A stretch of DNA of 24,055 nucleotides, taken from IMG/VR virus record IMGVR_UViG_3300017971_000759, positions 1-24,055 of that record; one strand, 5' to 3'. The position numbers and the translations under genes are program-made. Below are positions 1,487-8,100 of this stretch, in pieces; the first letter of the stretch is position 1, and each line of letters starts with the position of its first letter. This stretch comes from a virus. The notes under the pieces are model-generated. The model ran no database searches. It was not told the origin of the DNA and worked only from the letters and a program-made list of their open reading frames with translations.

Positions 1487-2059
1487 TCACATCCTAACCA
1501 ACGGCGACCGCCAATCCCGATGCACCCGCCCCGGCACTGGCGGAAACCCCAGAGAATAATCAATGTCCAATTTGGCCGCCAAACTGGAACTCGCATCGTA
1601 TGCCTTGAATCGCAAGGTGATCCCTGTCAGAGAATCCAGAATCAGAACCAAATCATCGGACGCAAAACCGCTCCGACTGACAACCTCTTGCACCGGATCA
1701 GTCACCGTGATCGAATACCAGCCCGTGCCCACACTAGAAGCACTCTTGCTGGCCTTGGCCGTGGTCCGCGACCGGCTGCTAATGTTCTCACTGTCAGTCG
1801 TGAACGTTCCCGGATCATCCTCGTCCTCACCGTAAATATCCAACTCGACATCATCATAATCTGTATCTGGAATCGAGAGCTGCACGGTGCCCACATCAAC
1901 AATAGCCCCCTGCGGCACAGTGACACTATTCCAACGCAATCCACCCCACTGATCCGAATCCGTCAACGAGATATTGACACTCGTCAAATCCATATCGCCA
2001 TTGCTAACCTCGTCCGCATCATCCGACGAAGCCCCCACCTGCAAATTGAGCGTGGTCAT
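1487..2059 (-). CDS. Beta-sandwich structural protein, DNRLRE-like
   Basis: A 190-residue acidic protein. The start ATG at 2057-2059 overlaps the stop of the upstream gene (ATGA), so translation is probably coupled. The layout (NISLTDSDQWGGLRWNSV, then a run of strands, then GWYSITVTDPVQEVVSRSGF and LRFKAYDASSS) is like the DNRLRE/carbohydrate-binding beta-sandwich type: one long strand-rich domain with a conserved 'W.s.dvT..Vq..' section. In phages such domains occur in tail and appendage proteins; a sugar-binding or adhesin role would be inference. There is no signal peptide. The family link is by pattern only and moderately uncertain; the gene itself is secure. Confidence 0.82.
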   Translation of the reverse strand: MTTLNLQVGASSDDADEVSNGDMDLTSVNISLTDSDQWGGLRWNSVTVPQGAIVDVGTVQLSIPDTDYDDVELDIYGEDEDDPGTFTTDSENISSRSRTTAKASKSASSVGTGWYSITVTDPVQEVVSRSGFASDDLVLILDSLTGITLRFKAYDASSSLAAKLDIDYSLGFPPVPGRVHRDWRSPLVRM

Positions 2060-2442
2060 AGAGCCGCAACCCCCGTTGGCACCTCGGCCCCGATCAGATC
2101 CGCCACCCCGGGTGCCGCCCGCAAACCCAGCGGATCCGTGTCCTCAGTCACAATGCTCTGATCCCGATTGTCCACTCGTCGCTTCATGTCAACCCGCGCC
2201 ACATAGCGCCGGATATTAGCCACAATCTCCGCCGCCACGTCGTTGGCCTGCTCCTCATAAGCCTTCGGCTCCAGGATCTCCCCATTCGGCCCCTCAGCCC
2301 CCACATACTCCCGGTGGGTACGGCGGATCTGCATCACAAAATCGTTGCGATGGACGATCTTGCCGCCGTCCAGGAAGGCCACATCCACATAGAGCCGGTG
2401 GCTGCCCTTGACGGTCTCAATCTTGGTGATCTTGAACTTCAT
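2056..2442 (-). CDS. Phage structural protein of unknown function
   Basis: A 128-residue protein starting at ATG 2440-2442, overlapping the beta-helix gene stop by ATGA, and itself overlapping the next start by ATGA. The tight three-gene overlap shows a coupled translational unit. It has an N-terminal beta region (KFKITKIETVKGSHRLYVDV) and a helical middle (EEQANDVAAEIVANIRRYVA), with no cysteines, signal or catalytic motif. Position after the head-tail adaptor suggests a small tail or appendage component. The product is not recognised. Confidence 0.8.
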   Translation of the reverse strand: MKFKITKIETVKGSHRLYVDVAFLDGGKIVHRNDFVMQIRRTHREYVGAEGPNGEILEPKAYEEQANDVAAEIVANIRRYVARVDMKRRVDNRDQSIVTEDTDPLGLRAAPGVADLIGAEVPTGVAAL

Positions 2443-3905
2443 CGCTCGTAGGCCCCCACGTCGGCCGCTGTGCCTTGCGGCCTGCCCACACCATCCAAAT
2501 CATACGGCGGGTATCCATCACCCCCCGCGTCAATCGCTGGGCTGTCTTCGACAAGATGATAATCACCTCTGGCAGGCTCCACAAATCTCAAATTCTCCAC
2601 CGTATAGCCAGCCTCTTTAGTCAGATTGTGATAAAAATTCGCATCTGGTGAACCGCCTTGGGCAATAGAGTCGCCCTCTGTGTCTATAATGATGTTGTTG
2701 AAAGCCTCATTCCCCCTACATTCGCTACATCGGAAAGCCACCCCGTACCTTCCTGCGCCAATGATTGTGTTATTGTAAACCATGTTGTTGTCAGACCAGG
2801 CCAGAATAGCATCAACGTATCCCCCAGAACCCCCGCCAGTCTCAACCAGCAGATTGTTGTAAATCCTGGCCGAAAACGGGCTGTTGTTCATCAAGATACC
2901 ACACCCGCCACTACCCACAATGACATTGTTATAGACTTCAGCCTTGGTGCCTTCGCTGATGGCAAGAGCGGCGTTTGCACCATCGGTCACAGCGTCACGG
3001 ATCACATTGTCATGTATAATGCAATCTTCAACTATGCCAGTGACCTTGAGCGCCCGACCGCCATTGTTCTCGAAAAGGTTGTGATCTACCTCCACTCGCC
3101 GTGATATAAACTCACCCGGATGCTCATGATACCCAGAGACACCCAAATAAAACGCATTCGGCGAATCGTGCATGTAGCAATGGTGGATGCGTATGTCGGT
3201 CATTTCAAAGTCCGGGTCAAGCGTATCCTTGACGCTCAGTCGAGCGCCATCCATCTCAATGTGATCCACTTCAATGTGATGGGAATGACCGTAGATCTTT
3301 ACGGGGCTCCTGAAATAAAAACCATACTCCGCGCCCGGCGCACCTGTCCCCGTCAGGCGAATATGTGAGCAATCCCTGCAAAGATAGAACTCCTGATTAG
3401 GATCCCACCCTCTCACCTGGCCGCCATCGTTTCGAATGGTGATCGGCTTCTCTGCCGTGCCCTGCAAGTCCCGAAATGCGATCTTGGTATAATTACCTGC
3501 TTCCAGGCAGATGACAGCACCAGGCGACACCCCACCGCCATCATATTGAACAGATCCAGGATTCAGCACAATGGTACATTCGCCACCCATCGGACCCCCG
3601 GTCGCCGTCGGCACCGGTGTCATCGTCGCCGTCGCCGAAGGCTCCACAACGACCGTTGGCGTCGGTGTCATCGTCGCTGTCGGCATCGGTATCTCTGTCG
3701 CTGTCGGCATAGGTGTCGGAGTCGTGGCCACCCGGATCTTCATCGCCACCCCATCACCCAGATCAAGCCAGCCACTCTCCCAATAAGCAGAGCCAATCAT
3801 AGGAGAGACACGCCGAGAAGCAATACCCACCCCCACCCCAATCGCCACAAACGCCACCAGCGCCATGGCCACCAACACAACCCTGCTTTTAGAACTCACA
3901 ATCAT
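2439..3905 (-). CDS. Membrane-anchored right-handed beta-helix protein
   Basis: The ATG at 3903-3905 is preferred (ribosome site GAGAGGTGG 4 nt upstream) over one 15 nt earlier. The 488-residue protein begins with one membrane segment (VVLVAMALVAFVAIGVGVGI, about residues 9-28), then a Thr/Pro-rich linker of about 45 residues (TPTPMPTATEIPMPTAT...), then a parallel beta-helix of pectate-lyase type with many 'NN.I.' and 'HHC.M' turns, and a C-terminal SPAIDAGGDG...DVGAYE motif found at the end of many secreted beta-helix proteins. It is probably a surface protein displayed outside the cell, or a polysaccharide-binding or cleaving spike. A membrane anchor is unusual for a tailspike, and the linker style is typical of Anaerolineae surface proteins, so acquisition from the host is possible. 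It lies 11 nt after the adaptor gene. Confidence 0.88.
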   Translation of the reverse strand: MIVSSKSRVVLVAMALVAFVAIGVGVGIASRRVSPMIGSAYWESGWLDLGDGVAMKIRVATTPTPMPTATEIPMPTATMTPTPTVVVEPSATATMTPVPTATGGPMGGECTIVLNPGSVQYDGGGVSPGAVICLEAGNYTKIAFRDLQGTAEKPITIRNDGGQVRGWDPNQEFYLCRDCSHIRLTGTGAPGAEYGFYFRSPVKIYGHSHHIEVDHIEMDGARLSVKDTLDPDFEMTDIRIHHCYMHDSPNAFYLGVSGYHEHPGEFISRRVEVDHNLFENNGGRALKVTGIVEDCIIHDNVIRDAVTDGANAALAISEGTKAEVYNNVIVGSGGCGILMNNSPFSARIYNNLLVETGGGSGGYVDAILAWSDNNMVYNNTIIGAGRYGVAFRCSECRGNEAFNNIIIDTEGDSIAQGGSPDANFYHNLTKEAGYTVENLRFVEPARGDYHLVEDSPAIDAGGDGYPPYDLDGVGRPQGTAADVGAYER

Positions 3906-3916
3906 CGTTCCACCTC

Positions 3917-4297
3917 TCACGTTTCATCCGCACTCACATCGTCACTATACCCATCCACCCGCGTCACAAACCGCGTCCCCGTCGCCGTCGCCGAGGTCCC
4001 ATGCCGCTGCCGCCATTCCTTCGCCAGCGCCTCAAACCGCTCCGCCGTCTGGCTCAACTGCTCCTTCCGAGGCCCCACTGCAATATCCACATACCCCGCC
4101 CACGCCGCCGCCAGCGCCTCAAACGACGCCGCCACTGCCCGCTCCCAGCTCCCCTCCGCCGTGATCAGCCCATCCAACTCCTCATCCGAGAAATTACCCG
4201 AGCTCGGCAGCGGCCCACTATCCTCCACCGTATCCCGCACATAAAACCGCACCTTATCCCGATCCGTCGTTAGATCCGCCCGATACGTAAACCCCAT
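3917..4297 (-). CDS. Head-tail adaptor (connector) protein
   Basis: A 126-residue protein. The N-terminus MGFTYRADLTTDRDKVRFYV, then RDTVED, then FSDEELDGLITAEGS and a long Ala-rich helix (ASFEALAAAWAGY), match the usual layout of gp6/gp15-type adaptor proteins that dock under the portal. The 'DKVR..i.Dt......fsDeEi' pattern is the main recognition point. It lies between a small beta-rich protein gene and the beta-helix gene, on the tail side of the capsid cluster, which fits the role. Length is in the usual range. It acts inside the particle at the head-tail joint; no enzymatic role is expected. Confidence 0.8.
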   Translation of the reverse strand: MGFTYRADLTTDRDKVRFYVRDTVEDSGPLPSSGNFSDEELDGLITAEGSWERAVAASFEALAAAWAGYVDIAVGPRKEQLSQTAERFEALAKEWRQRHGTSATATGTRFVTRVDGYSDDVSADET

Positions 4298-4308
4298 CCA
4301 TCACCCCT

Positions 4309-4342
4309 GTCATTGCGAGGAGCGCAGCGACGAAGCAATCTC
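4309..4342. repeat. Dispersed repeat family A copy
   Basis: A 34-bp copy (GTCATTGCGAGG...AATCTC) between the adaptor and the next gene upstream. Its last two bases form part of the TGA stop codon of the gene that ends at 4341. Confidence 0.85.
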
Positions 4343-4727
4343 ACACCCTCGACAAATCCTCATACACAATCGTCGCCACCACCCCATCGTCATTGTTCGC
4401 CTGCGCAATCGTCACCGTAATCCGATCATCGCACACCACCGGCGCCCCCTGATTCGTAATGTCACTGCCATCCGCCCCATCGTCCGCCTGCCACATCGGA
4501 TAAAACCACCCATCCGTGGCCGCATTGCTCACCGTCAGGATCGCCAGCGCCGGACTCATCGCCCCCGCCACCGTCACATCCGTCGTCCCCGCCGGTGGAC
4601 TATCCGTGTAAGCCAGATAAATCGCCCGGATAATCCCATTGATCACCACCGTCGAAGTCGTGTTGGCTGTGGCCACCCCTGCCCCACCCGTCGCCCCTGT
4701 CACCGTAATCGTCTCACGCCGAATCAT
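4341..4727 (-). CDS. Small beta-rich phage structural protein
   Basis: A 128-residue protein starting at ATG 4725-4727 with ribosome site GAGGAGG 5 nt upstream. It is rich in Thr, Val and Ala and lacks long helices (MIRRETITVTGATGGAGVAT at the start, DRITVTIAQANNDDGVVATI near the end). It looks like a beta-sandwich capsid or tail accessory protein. A similar overall pattern occurs in small proteins next to head-tail connectors. Its stop codon is completed by the edge of a family A repeat, implying that the repeat arrived without removing needed residues, or supplied the present end. Function is not recognised. Confidence 0.8.
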   Translation of the reverse strand: MIRRETITVTGATGGAGVATANTTSTVVINGIIRAIYLAYTDSPPAGTTDVTVAGAMSPALAILTVSNAATDGWFYPMWQADDGADGSDITNQGAPVVCDDRITVTIAQANNDDGVVATIVYEDLSRV

Positions 4728-4782: not shown

Positions 4783-5202
4783 CTATTCGTTGGCCAATCC
4801 GTTCAATCCGTTCCCCGAATCCGTTGACAGCCCTGCCTCCTCCGCAATCAATGCCAACCCCGCCGCCTCAATCAGCTTCTGCGCCGTCACCCTTCCCACC
4901 CCCGCCAGCGCCGTCAACGCCGTCACACTCGCCCCGGCCACCGCCTCCATTGTATGGAACCCCAACCCATGCAACGCCATCGCCATCCCCTCATCCACCC
5001 CCTCAATCCCCAACAGTTCATCTCCCAATCCGTTCAATCCGCTCCCCGAATCCGCTGACAGCCCCACCTCCTCAATCACCCCCTCCGCCAACAACTGCTC
5101 CCTCAACTTCGGAGGCAACTCATCATCCCCAATCCGCGCCCCCGCCTTCTTCACCACCCCCACCGACATCGCCCGAATATCCACCTTCGCTACATAACCC
5201 AT
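4783..5202 (-). CDS. Helix-hairpin-helix protein with repeat-derived inserts
   Basis: A 139-residue protein starting at ATG 5200-5202 (ribosome site GGGAGGTGG, 5 nt spacing), overlapping the CHAT-like gene stop by 13 nt. Residues 1-46 (MGYVAKVDIRAMSVG...) form an N-terminal module. Residues about 64-114 form tandem helix-hairpin-helix units (LLGIEGVDEGMAMALHGLGF and ALAGVGRVTAQKLIEAAG) of the kind that bind DNA backbone or mediate protein contacts. Two segments, GLSADSGSGLNGLGDE (47-62) and GLSTDSGNGLNGLANE (124-139), are encoded by two copies of dispersed repeat family B inserted in frame. Translational overlap suggests cooperation with the caspase-like gene. Its role in the particle is unknown. 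Confidence 0.8.
   Translation of the reverse strand: MGYVAKVDIRAMSVGVVKKAGARIGDDELPPKLREQLLAEGVIEEVGLSADSGSGLNGLGDELLGIEGVDEGMAMALHGLGFHTMEAVAGASVTALTALAGVGRVTAQKLIEAAGLALIAEEAGLSTDSGNGLNGLANE
4794..4833. repeat. Dispersed repeat family B copy, coding
   Basis: A 40-bp copy of the family CCAATCCGTTCAATCCG...GTTGACAGCCC. On the minus strand it is read in frame as the C-terminal 13 or so residues of the helix-hairpin-helix protein. A degenerate AATCGTTCATTCGTTAATTCG tract extends it on the left to about 4755. Confidence 0.85.
5025..5064. repeat. Dispersed repeat family B copy, coding
   Basis: A second 40-bp copy with three or so substitutions relative to the copy at 4794-4833. It is read in the same frame as that copy inside the helix-hairpin-helix gene, just before its HhH domain. 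Confidence 0.85.
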
Positions 5203-5723
5203 CGATCCACCTCCCGATAAACCCGAAACGCCAGCGTATCCTCCGTCACCCGATCAGGCCGCCGCAACTTCAACCGCATCTTAGCCACCCAAAACGCCCG
5301 CTGCAACTCCATCCCCAGCCCCAGCATCCACCGCACATACAACCCCAGCAGATCCGCCCCATCCACCCGCCCCGCCCGGGCATAATTCTCCCCCGCCCCA
5401 CCGATCACCGCCCGCGCCCCCCCGTCCAACAGCGCCTCCAACATCGGACTCTCCGGCAGATGGCAATTGGCCACGAAAACCACCGCCCCGCCCAGATCCA
5501 TCGCCCGCACCTGCTTGGCGCTCACCGCCGTCAGCCAATCGTCCCCATACCAAAACGGCTGCCCCGGCAACCCATGCAATTTGAAATACAGGAACTCCCG
5601 ACCATGAAACAGCGAGACATCCAGCGTCTCCAGCGAGGCAGGCGGCGAAAGCAACGGTTCCACCCCCGCCGCCCGCCTCACACTCCGCTCATAACTAGCC
5701 GCACAGTAAGCAAAACTCCGCAT
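5190..5723 (-). CDS. CHAT/caspase-fold-like protein in virion operon
   Basis: A 177-residue protein. Residues 44-51 (FLYFKLHG) and 81-87 (VVFVANC) match the two core strands of the CHAT/caspase-type fold, which carry the catalytic His (here H50) and Cys (C87). They are followed by SPMLEALLDGGARAVIGG (92-109), the typical 'larall.aGa.aVig' helix-strand of that fold, and a GLYVRWMLGLG helix. No large fusion partner is present, so this is close to a minimal catalytic domain. It lies between the 419-aa membrane-anchored gene and the HhH gene, overlapping the latter by 13 nt. If active it would be a cysteine peptidase acting on a capsid, tail or host protein. Fold assignment is by motif and order only; activity and target are unknown. 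Confidence 0.72.
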   Translation of the reverse strand: MRSFAYCAASYERSVRRAAGVEPLLSPPASLETLDVSLFHGREFLYFKLHGLPGQPFWYGDDWLTAVSAKQVRAMDLGGAVVFVANCHLPESPMLEALLDGGARAVIGGAGENYARAGRVDGADLLGLYVRWMLGLGMELQRAFWVAKMRLKLRRPDRVTEDTLAFRVYREVDRWVM

Positions 5724-5800: not shown

Positions 5801-7060
5801 CTAACTGTTATCGTAATTCGCCAGACAGTTCCAATCGCTCCCGTTCCAGATCAACATCAACGTATCGCTCGCCCCCAGCGCCACGTTCGCCTTACATTCC
5901 ACATTCGCCCCCGTCCCGTCTATAGTGATAGCGTCCGCAGCGTTCCCGTTTCTCAAAATCAGCACATCGCCCGTCTCACCCCCATCCGCAATGCACGTGG
6001 TTGTATCACACGTGATCGCCTCCGTCGAGGTGATGACCTGATACGTCCCCGTCGGCGTGATCGTCTCATCAGCCCCGATCGCCAGCGTAGTTTGCGCCGA
6101 AAAGTTGAGCCACGTCCCGACATCAACCGTTGACCCTGCATTGAGATCATCACCCTCAATATCCCCGCTCGTGTCCAGATTCGCCGACCCAAAGTCCCAT
6201 TCACCGTTCGGGCTATTGCTGATCGTCTCGCTGTTCTGGCCCACGATATCATTGGTAAAAGTCCCCGCGCTCAGATCCAGACCATAGGTCCAGGTATCCG
6301 CCTCAGTGTAGATCACCCTCGAAGTGGTGATGGTCCCAGAGTTATCCAGGTCAGCCATAAAGTTGGCCCCAGCCGTGATCACATCATTGGAACCATCCGT
6401 TTCTACCCTGGAATAGATCCCATACCCCTCCGGGATGGTCGCCGTAGTCTTGGCCACCACTTTCCCCATGATCCCGATGCCGGTTGCGTTGCCTGTGCCC
6501 ACCACAGCTTTAAAGGTAGATTTTCCCTCGATACCATAGATAGTCCGTGTCGTGGGCATCGTCGCCGTGACCTGCGTGTTGGCAAACAGCGCCTGAAAAT
6601 CCGATGAGGACCCCCAGCCAGTGATATTGTATGCGCTGTGCCATCCATTGCCCCGCCCCAATGCGCTCACGTCAGAGATGTCAGCCCAATTGTCTGTCCC
6701 ATCATACGAGCGCATCTGACCGTAGACATAGATGTTGTCCGTGATCGCATCGCCCAGCGTCGTGTTTCCGCTGAAGGTCCCCGCTCCCGTCTGCGTCACC
6801 GCCCCCCCATCCGCCACCCGCCACACCACCGTCCCATCGTCTCGCAGCTCAATGATGTCCCCCGTGGAGGTCTGATCCACCACCAGCAGATCGGTCTCAT
6901 CTCCCGTCACATCCAGGCCCGAGAAATGTGTCACCCCTAGCGCCACAATCTCATCATCCTCTGGCGCACACGCCCATACCGCCAACAGCGCCAGGATCAG
7001 CACCAACCCCAACCCAACAACCGCCAACCCCCACCGCTGTCGTTCATTCATCTTCATCAT
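5801..7060 (-). CDS. Membrane-anchored or lipoprotein-like repetitive surface protein
   Basis: A 419-residue protein starting at ATG 7058-7060 with ribosome site AAGGAGGTAAG directly upstream. The N-terminus MMKMNERQRWG is followed by a hydrophobic segment (LAVVGLGLVLILALLAVWAC) ending in a Cys; VWAC is a weak lipobox, so either a lipoprotein or a signal anchor is possible. The rest is Thr/Gly/Asn-rich beta-type sequence with GDITG-like turns (e.g. GTFSGNTTLGDAITDNIYV) and a compact C-terminal domain ending LIWNGSDWNCLANYDNS, which resembles ends of phage appendage proteins. It follows the capsid gene, where a secreted protein is unexpected. Role may be surface display, exclusion of other phages, or a virion fibre. 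Function is not recognised. Confidence 0.8.
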   Translation of the reverse strand: MMKMNERQRWGLAVVGLGLVLILALLAVWACAPEDDEIVALGVTHFSGLDVTGDETDLLVVDQTSTGDIIELRDDGTVVWRVADGGAVTQTGAGTFSGNTTLGDAITDNIYVYGQMRSYDGTDNWADISDVSALGRGNGWHSAYNITGWGSSSDFQALFANTQVTATMPTTRTIYGIEGKSTFKAVVGTGNATGIGIMGKVVAKTTATIPEGYGIYSRVETDGSNDVITAGANFMADLDNSGTITTSRVIYTEADTWTYGLDLSAGTFTNDIVGQNSETISNSPNGEWDFGSANLDTSGDIEGDDLNAGSTVDVGTWLNFSAQTTLAIGADETITPTGTYQVITSTEAITCDTTTCIADGGETGDVLILRNGNAADAITIDGTGANVECKANVALGASDTLMLIWNGSDWNCLANYDNS

Positions 7061-7079
7061 CTTACCTCCTTACTGCATA

Positions 7080-7102
7080 GGGGCAGGGCTCGCCCCTGCC
7101 CC
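7080..7102. repeat. GC-rich hairpin between capsid gene and 419-aa gene
   Basis: GGGGCAGGG (7080-7088) and CCCTGCCCC (7094-7102) pair perfectly over 9 bp around a 5-nt loop. No T-run follows on the minus strand, so it is not a classical terminator; it could slow polymerase or protect the upstream capsid mRNA end. A family A repeat adjoins it on the right (7115-7148). Confidence 0.7.
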
Positions 7103-7114
7103 ACTTCAGTCCCT

Positions 7115-7148
7115 GTCATTGCGAGGAGCGCAGCGACGAAGCAATCTC
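7115..7148. repeat. Dispersed repeat family A copy
   Basis: A 34-bp copy identical in core to those at 4309, 5764, 8101 and 16412, located just after the stop of the capsid gene. Confidence 0.85.
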
Positions 7149-7161
7149 CGCCTCACCCTCA

Positions 7162-8067
7162 TCAACTCGGGTTATTCCCGTACACCCATCGCCAATCGCT
7201 CCAGCCATAGCTGTACCGCATATACCCTCGGAACCTGGCCTCCAAGCGGAAATCGCTGGTCGGATCCATCTCGAACTCCAACGGTATCCGATCGAACCAG
7301 TTCAGATACAGCTTCGCCAGCCCGCTATCAACCAGCCACCACGCGTTGGCGTCCGTCAGATAGTCCCACACGATCACCTTCCGCAGCTTGCTGCGCACAA
7401 AGTTGGCGTGATAATCGGCCGTGTCCGGCTTGTTCATCGTCTCAAAGATCGCCCAGGCCGATTCCTCCAGTTCTGGCGGCACCACCAACGCATCTGGATT
7501 CACTTGCACCAGCTCGCCCCGGTCGTCCGGATACTCCCGCATCAGCCGCCGCACCGTCACCACGTTATCATAAGACAGCGCATAGGTCCCATAGTTGTCG
7601 TGCGTGTCGCCGCTGTGTTCCGGCGAGAGCGGGTGAGAATCGTTGCACAGACTCACCCCATCGCCCCCGGTATAGCTGCTCGAGAAGGCGTTGTTGAACA
7701 CGCTCGCTGCGTGCTTTTCCCGCGTTCTCATCGCCGTCAACGCCAACTGCCGCGGCCGCTTGCTGATGATGTTGTACTGGTCATCGTCCACCAGCTTCCG
7801 CTCCACCTTAAAGCCCTTCACATACTCCACGTGGGTATAGGTCGTCTTGTAGAGCTGATCAAAGTCGTCGTACTCAATCGCCCCCTCGTACTCCTCCCAA
7901 TCGCTCATCCCACCCACACCCAGATCGTGCTCCTGAGGCTTGTCCGAACCGACCACATTGAACAGCATCGGGATCCGACTGGCCTCCGCCAGCGCGTCCC
8001 GCTGCACCTCAAAGATCGCCCTCAGCCCAGGCTCCAACAATTCAGTCCACATCTCCGAAATAGCCAT
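7162..8067 (-). CDS. Major capsid protein, Mu gpT-type
   Basis: A 301-residue protein starting at the second of two ATGs (8065-8067), 5 nt after GGAGG. The stretch YDDFDQLYKTTYTHVEYVKG, then ERKLVDDDQYNIISKRP, then AASVFNNAF...DGVSLCNDSHPLSP follows the layout of the Mu-like major head subunit (gpT) family, which adopts the HK97 fold. The length matches that family without an N-terminal delta domain, so no proteolytic prohead maturation is required in principle. It is preceded by decoration-like and scaffold genes, the usual order. It assembles into the icosahedral shell. A strong ribosome site fits high expression. Confidence 0.88.
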   Translation of the reverse strand: MAISEMWTELLEPGLRAIFEVQRDALAEASRIPMLFNVVGSDKPQEHDLGVGGMSDWEEYEGAIEYDDFDQLYKTTYTHVEYVKGFKVERKLVDDDQYNIISKRPRQLALTAMRTREKHAASVFNNAFSSSYTGGDGVSLCNDSHPLSPEHSGDTHDNYGTYALSYDNVVTVRRLMREYPDDRGELVQVNPDALVVPPELEESAWAIFETMNKPDTADYHANFVRSKLRKVIVWDYLTDANAWWLVDSGLAKLYLNWFDRIPLEFEMDPTSDFRLEARFRGYMRYSYGWSDWRWVYGNNPS

Positions 8068-8100
8068 CATTACCTCCTACGTAACGCATTATTCTACTCC

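Follow-up and report, generated by a model that had tools for sequence, protein, structure and literature searches.

The peptidase gene and its neighbours

The window, by which we mean the whole stretch of 24,055 nucleotides analysed here, carries a run of phage head genes with a scaffold (PF06810), a major capsid protein (PF25209) and a Mu-F-like protein, and among them lies the gene of a small putative cysteine peptidase that we call C25v (Table 1). The reading frame starts with ATG and encodes LYFKLHG, with H50, and VVFVANC, with C87, followed by GGARAVIGG; all of this, including the 37 residues between the His and the Cys, is present as the first-pass annotation had described it. The location in a virion operon, also pointed out there, is supported and is conserved in the relatives. 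C25v has no signal peptide or other export signal, and in the AlphaFold model the first core strand begins at residue 3.

Table 1. Features of the peptidase locus; positions refer to the window unless another locus is named.
Feature	Position	Strand	Evidence or remark
Small protein, homologue 3' of C25v in several relatives	4341..4727	minus	neighbour comparison
Helix-hairpin-helix (HhH) protein	4783..5202	minus	PF14520 E 1.8e-12; 13-nt overlap with C25v
C25v, predicted clan CD (C25-like) cysteine peptidase, 177 aa	5190-5723	minus	alignment, AlphaFold, Foldseek
C87 codon, putative nucleophile (ANC)	5463..5465	minus	invariant 17/17
H50 codon, putative catalytic His (LHG)	5574..5576	minus	invariant 17/17
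Anchored fibre-like protein, 419 aa, candidate substrate	5801..7060	minus	PF25692 E 1.7e-5
Fibre motif LGVTHFS, putative cleavage or recognition site	6920..6940	minus	conservation of L and G
Fibre hydrophobic N-terminal anchor (LAVVGLGLVLILALLAVWAC)	6968..7027	minus	lipobox-like Cys at anchor end
Major capsid protein without protease domain	7162..8070	minus	PF25209; relatives without C25v
Upstream fibre ORF of L038	7304-7891		

The HhH gene overlaps the end of the peptidase gene, and the two had been proposed to be translationally coupled. The overlap is there in the window, but the HhH gene is not adjacent to C25v in the relatives, and relatives of the HhH protein occur in phages that have no C25v; the HhH protein was therefore rejected as a functional partner. 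In the relatives the gene after C25v is instead most often a homologue of the small protein gene. The recurrence of this neighbour in several loci could mean that C25v has another virion partner, and that it cuts the small protein, a tail protein or itself during assembly or entry, all the more as clan CD domains of family C80 process their own chains (PMC12445089). We find this improbable, since proteins similar to the small one turn up in C25v-less phages as well, and since the gene downstream of C25v is more variable across the loci than the gene upstream.

Several other features of the window deserve mention in their own right. A 49-nt intergenic repeat with the core GTCATTGCGAGGAGCGCAGCGACGAAGCAATCTC is present in six copies (at 885, 4304, 5759, 7110, 8096 and 16407), one of which sits in the gap between the fibre gene and C25v, and there is a second repeat family, CGTCATTCCGAGCGA...GTCGAGGAATCTC. 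Similar repeats commonly separate genes in some bacteria, but within a phage operon they are unusual. An open reading frame at 1-879 consists of about eleven tandem repeats of 23 amino acids (LTLAGSAESLTVVPG..., with a unit of 69 nt) and runs off the end of the window. Finally, a second anchored protein is encoded in the virion run, at 2439-3920, with a hydrophobic segment at its N-terminus, a linker rich in Pro and Thr and a right-handed beta helix (PF13229, E 3.8e-12).

Relatives, fold and family

Searches of Pfam, NCBIfam, PADLOC and PHROGs gave no profile that recognised C25v. A phmmer search gave no solved relative, exact-peptide scans with the single sequence gave no relatives in the viral or genome collections, and neither did tblastn against annotated phages. 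The search patterns were loosened by means of a bait alignment (A1) that held two invented sequences written by hand; these served as bait only, and all homologues reported here are real DNA, checked by tblastn or HMMER. The scan with the bait patterns returned 12 viral loci with 38-58% identity to C25v and 15 distant cellular loci, and a second scan, with patterns from real sequences only, added five further viral loci. The resulting alignment (A3) has 17 viral sequences, namely the window protein and 16 non-redundant relatives, the duplicate L039 being omitted. An 18th relative (E 2e-58) was found on a 4.5-kb contig in a Chloroflexota genome bin, which is a hint, but no more than that, as to the host group.

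Both H50-G51 and C87 are invariant in the alignment, the distance between the His and the Cys is exactly 37 residues in every one of the 17 sequences, and the two residues are kept in sequences down to about 40% identity. The bait patterns favoured residues 46-59 (YFKLHG, QPFWY), so conservation in that segment is partly built in; C87 was in no pattern of the first successful search, and its conservation in the first 12 loci is thus independent of how these were discovered. Pairs of C25v relatives have dN/dS values of 0.22-0.35, which means purifying selection. As judged from the sequences, the invariant dyad, the fixed spacing and the purifying selection confirm that C25v is a real gene and not a product of chance. 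The loss of H50 or C87 in homologues, which the first-pass annotation had named as evidence against a peptidase, was not seen. The same observations, over the same range of identity, make it most unlikely that C25v is a catalytically dead structural protein with its caspase fold kept as a binding module, even if an invariant Asn precedes the Cys where the cellular relatives have Ala.

AlphaFold modelled C25v with high confidence from the 17-sequence alignment (pLDDT 93.2, pTM 0.90; the single sequence gave a pLDDT of 46), and strands E44-48 and E81-84 come before H50 and C87. In a Foldseek search of the PDB the best match was a SAVED-CHAT protein (E 5e-6), followed by the TPR-CHAT of Csx29/Craspase and by separase, with gingipain R, caspase-8 and CED-3 lower down; the eight highest-ranking matches, those with E <= 0.001, consist entirely of clan CD and CHAT proteins. 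A search of predicted viral structures gave no more than two matches at E < 0.001, neither of them informatively named. The caspase/CHAT-type fold that had been proposed from the letters is thus borne out, and the modelled fold together with the His/Cys dyad supports the placing of C25v among the clan CD cysteine peptidases.

By sequence, the nearest named family is Peptidase_C25, the gingipain family. A profile of the viral proteins finds cellular Peptidase_C25 proteins of 357-918 aa (E 6e-16 to 1e-7), and hhalign aligns the two groups over 158 columns (E 1.4e-11) with H50 on the His of the cellular proteins and Cys on Cys. The alignment covers only the second half, residues 175-349, of a cellular C25 protein of 356 aa, so that C25v is a homologue of C25 peptidases in their catalytic half only. 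The profile check against CHAT and C25 that had been suggested came out divided: homology to C25 was established in this way, but the PF01364 cut-off was not reached by C25v or the five other viral members scanned, and no CHAT profile in Pfam or PADLOC matched C25v. C25v is a previously unlabelled phage family, present in at least 18 phages from the environment, and a literature search covering open-access papers found no clan CD protease encoded in a virion operon.

Large cellular proteins of about 640-920 aa, with a catalytic half related to C25v, occur in L047, in L060 and in 16 of 400 sampled Chloroflexota genomes, and where scanned they combine TPR and C25. It is possible that such TPR-C25 proteins were the source of the phage gene.

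The anchored fibre upstream and its co-variation with C25v

The gene directly upstream of C25v encodes an anchored fibre-like protein, homologous or similar to that of the window, in all 16 non-redundant loci where this could be assessed. Ten loci have a gap of -1 to 13 nt between the two genes; in the remaining six it measures 73-287 nt. The fibres share a layout with a hydrophobic N-terminal segment, a spacer and then LG[VTMY]TH[FL][ST], and clearer lipoboxes than in the window, LIGC or LVGC, are seen in L041, L043 and L042. The C-terminus of the window fibre is a beta sandwich like that of Phage_depo_C. Twelve of the 16 fibres have the LG-x-TH[F/L] motif in strict form, two are near variants and two divergent, and its L and G are invariant in 14 fibre N-termini; in L064 and L066 C25v is present and the motif divergent.

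The viral collection was also searched in the reverse direction, with the fibre N-terminus, so as not to count only loci selected by C25v. The fibre alignment of 14 rows was too diverse for scanning, and subsets were used instead. C25v was found in all seven loci with an LG-type fibre and intact downstream sequence, two further loci were truncated, and an additional scan returned the same contigs. L072 and L076 were left unscored, as their sequences break off within the fibre gene. The motif is all the same not an exclusive signature of C25v, and we rejected it as such, because the fibres of one lineage, L078, L079 and L080, keep GTTHFT, without the Leu, in phages that have no C25v. In these three the GTTHFT stands directly behind a signal-peptidase-like site (ALAYA-GTTHFT; in L079 the gene is at 5935-7212), so that a virion-type fibre looks like a secreted protein. 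It is as if the same fibre N-terminus were made in another way.

Across 15 loci, pairwise C25v divergence is correlated with the divergence of the fibre N-terminus, for which the 120 residues surrounding the motif were taken (r 0.65; p 0.0005 by permutation), and less with the divergence of the fibre C-terminus, for which the last 110 residues were taken (r 0.30). The partial correlation with C25v is 0.60 for the N-terminus when the C-terminus is controlled for, and 0.03 for the C-terminus when the N-terminus is. Were physical linkage alone at work, the ranking should be reversed, as the C-terminus is the part of the fibre encoded nearest to C25v. Capsid sequences were available for 14 loci, and in these C25v and the fibre N-terminus correlate at 0.69 with the capsid controlled for, and C25v and the capsid alone at 0.39, or 0.06 without L064 and L066. 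When L064, L066 and L037 are dropped the correlation of C25v with the fibre N-terminus falls to 0.50 (p 0.0015). Frequent exchange of receptor-binding tips could be another cause of the weak C-terminal signal, and joint transfer combined with such swapping of tips can produce the co-variation in 15 linked loci.

The first-pass annotation had suggested that C25v might process a head protein. As a prohead protease it would mature the capsid or the scaffold in place of the missing standard protease. The gene is part of the head operon, the window gave no sign of a further protease, and cysteine head proteases exist, e.g. that of Streptococcus phage Cp-1, which belongs to clan CR (PMC12445089). 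Relatives of the window capsid were however found in 33 loci, with a variable stretch after the capsid gene, and none of the 22 such records searched contains C25v (tblastn and profile searches with two positive controls; some records are fragments); their capsid proteins are up to 72% identical to that of the window. Where genes downstream of the capsid were inspected in capsid-relative loci, none had the fibre motif. In most C25v loci the capsid proteins are extended at the N-terminus by a long stretch and are similar to 'major head and protease' families, so that many C25v phages would have a capsid already fused to a head-protease-like region, although the protease match within the extension itself is weak; those of the window, L064 and L066 are short. 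No PHROG of head maturation proteases matched C25v, and no PHROG was common to the 17 members. As C25v is missing from the 22 capsid-relative records, mostly accompanies very different capsids where it is present, and shows no co-variation with the capsid when L064 and L066 are left out, we rejected the reading as a prohead protease and hold it to be very improbable. In L040, just before the capsid gene, an ORF of 488 aa (1796-3262) has an N-terminus like an RNA-ligase PHROG and a region like a head maturation protease.

The main rival to a processing of the fibre is that C25v is directed against the host, as a late or virion-delivered protease that serves takeover or lysis, or that disarms a defence of CHAT or Craspase type, the site behind the fibre being a hotspot for accessory genes. 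The interval between capsid and connector does hold variable cargo in the relatives, the best structural matches of C25v are defence peptidases, the lack of a signal peptide is what would be expected of a cytoplasmic enzyme, and one relative comes from a bin of the Chloroflexota, a phylum whose host genomes contain large C25 proteins. A free-standing accessory gene would, on the other hand, not be expected to follow one and the same kind of anchored fibre in 16 of 16 loci, nor to vary along with the fibre N-terminus more than the capsid accounts for, and we consider this explanation rather unlikely, if the most serious of the alternatives.

A possible fibre-processing enzyme and its known counterparts

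The adjacency to the fibre and the joint evolution with it make fibre trimming a more probable role than head processing, and of the targets first proposed, a tail or entry protein is the one we favour, the candidate being the anchored fibre. Our tentative hypothesis, to which we would give somewhat less than an even chance, is that C25v is an active clan CD endopeptidase that forms a unit with the upstream fibre and cuts it near LG-x-THF[S/T], thereby removing the anchor. The fibre would be made with a membrane or lipoprotein anchor at its N-terminus, followed by a short spacer and the motif; C25v would cut in or beside the motif, e.g. at L|G, and the fibre, rid of its anchor, would be assembled on the virion or released. 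That the enzyme is active, that the fibre is what it cuts, at which bond it does so and why the anchor would be removed are all inferences, and L|G is a guess made because these two residues are invariant. The motif could also be nothing more than the start of the fibre shaft. Since C25v has no export signal and the fibre is expected to be exported, enzyme and site may sit in different compartments, which might be solved by a cut before export, at lysis, or by C25v carried in the virion. That this would amount to a dedicated system of fibre maturation, where anchored precursors are freed by a gingipain-type peptidase that recognises LG-x-THF[S/T] and one gene could give both a cell-surface and a virion form, is a further step that we regard as doubtful, though not far-fetched.

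If the pairing is functional, it supplies a particular enzyme together with a candidate for its substrate and for the site, within reach of a single co-expression experiment, and it is relevant to the question why the virion operons of some phages encode proteins with export signals. A caspase-fold phage family in the virion gene run, tracking one class of anchored fibre, has been invisible to Pfam, NCBIfam, PHROGs and PADLOC. Discussion of caspase-fold peptidases in prokaryotes has centred mostly on host, cell-death and defence proteins.

The likeness of C25v to Peptidase_C25, above all to the TPR-C25 proteins and the C25 proteins of 350 aa from Anaerolineales, WOR-3 and Stahlbacteria, extends over the SPP... 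segment, LYF-LHG, WYG, the Cys and the C-terminal helices, all of which align. C25v differs from these proteins in that it lacks both the TPR and the N-terminal half of a two-half domain of about 350 aa, in the invariant Asn before the Cys (NC, against EAC in the cellular relatives), and in being encoded in a phage virion operon. Clan CD peptidases are strict for P1, and the known C25 peptidases, the gingipains, cut after Arg or Lys (PMC12445089). To the CHAT peptidases C25v is alike in fold, with TM-scores of 0.65-0.67 over the query (the SAVED-CHAT filament 8tl0, E 5e-6; 8eey, E 1e-4), but the identity is about 12-16%, and C25v has no sensor domain and lies outside any defence locus. The autoprocessing domains of family C80 share the clan CD fold as well, with a weak fold match (3eeb, E 0.02); they cut after Leu (PMC12445089), but act in cis within a larger protein and serve here only as a precedent for specificity. 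The prohead protease of the Cp-1 type is likewise a cysteine protease that a phage encodes among the genes of its virion, but C25v belongs to a different clan and does not track the head genes.
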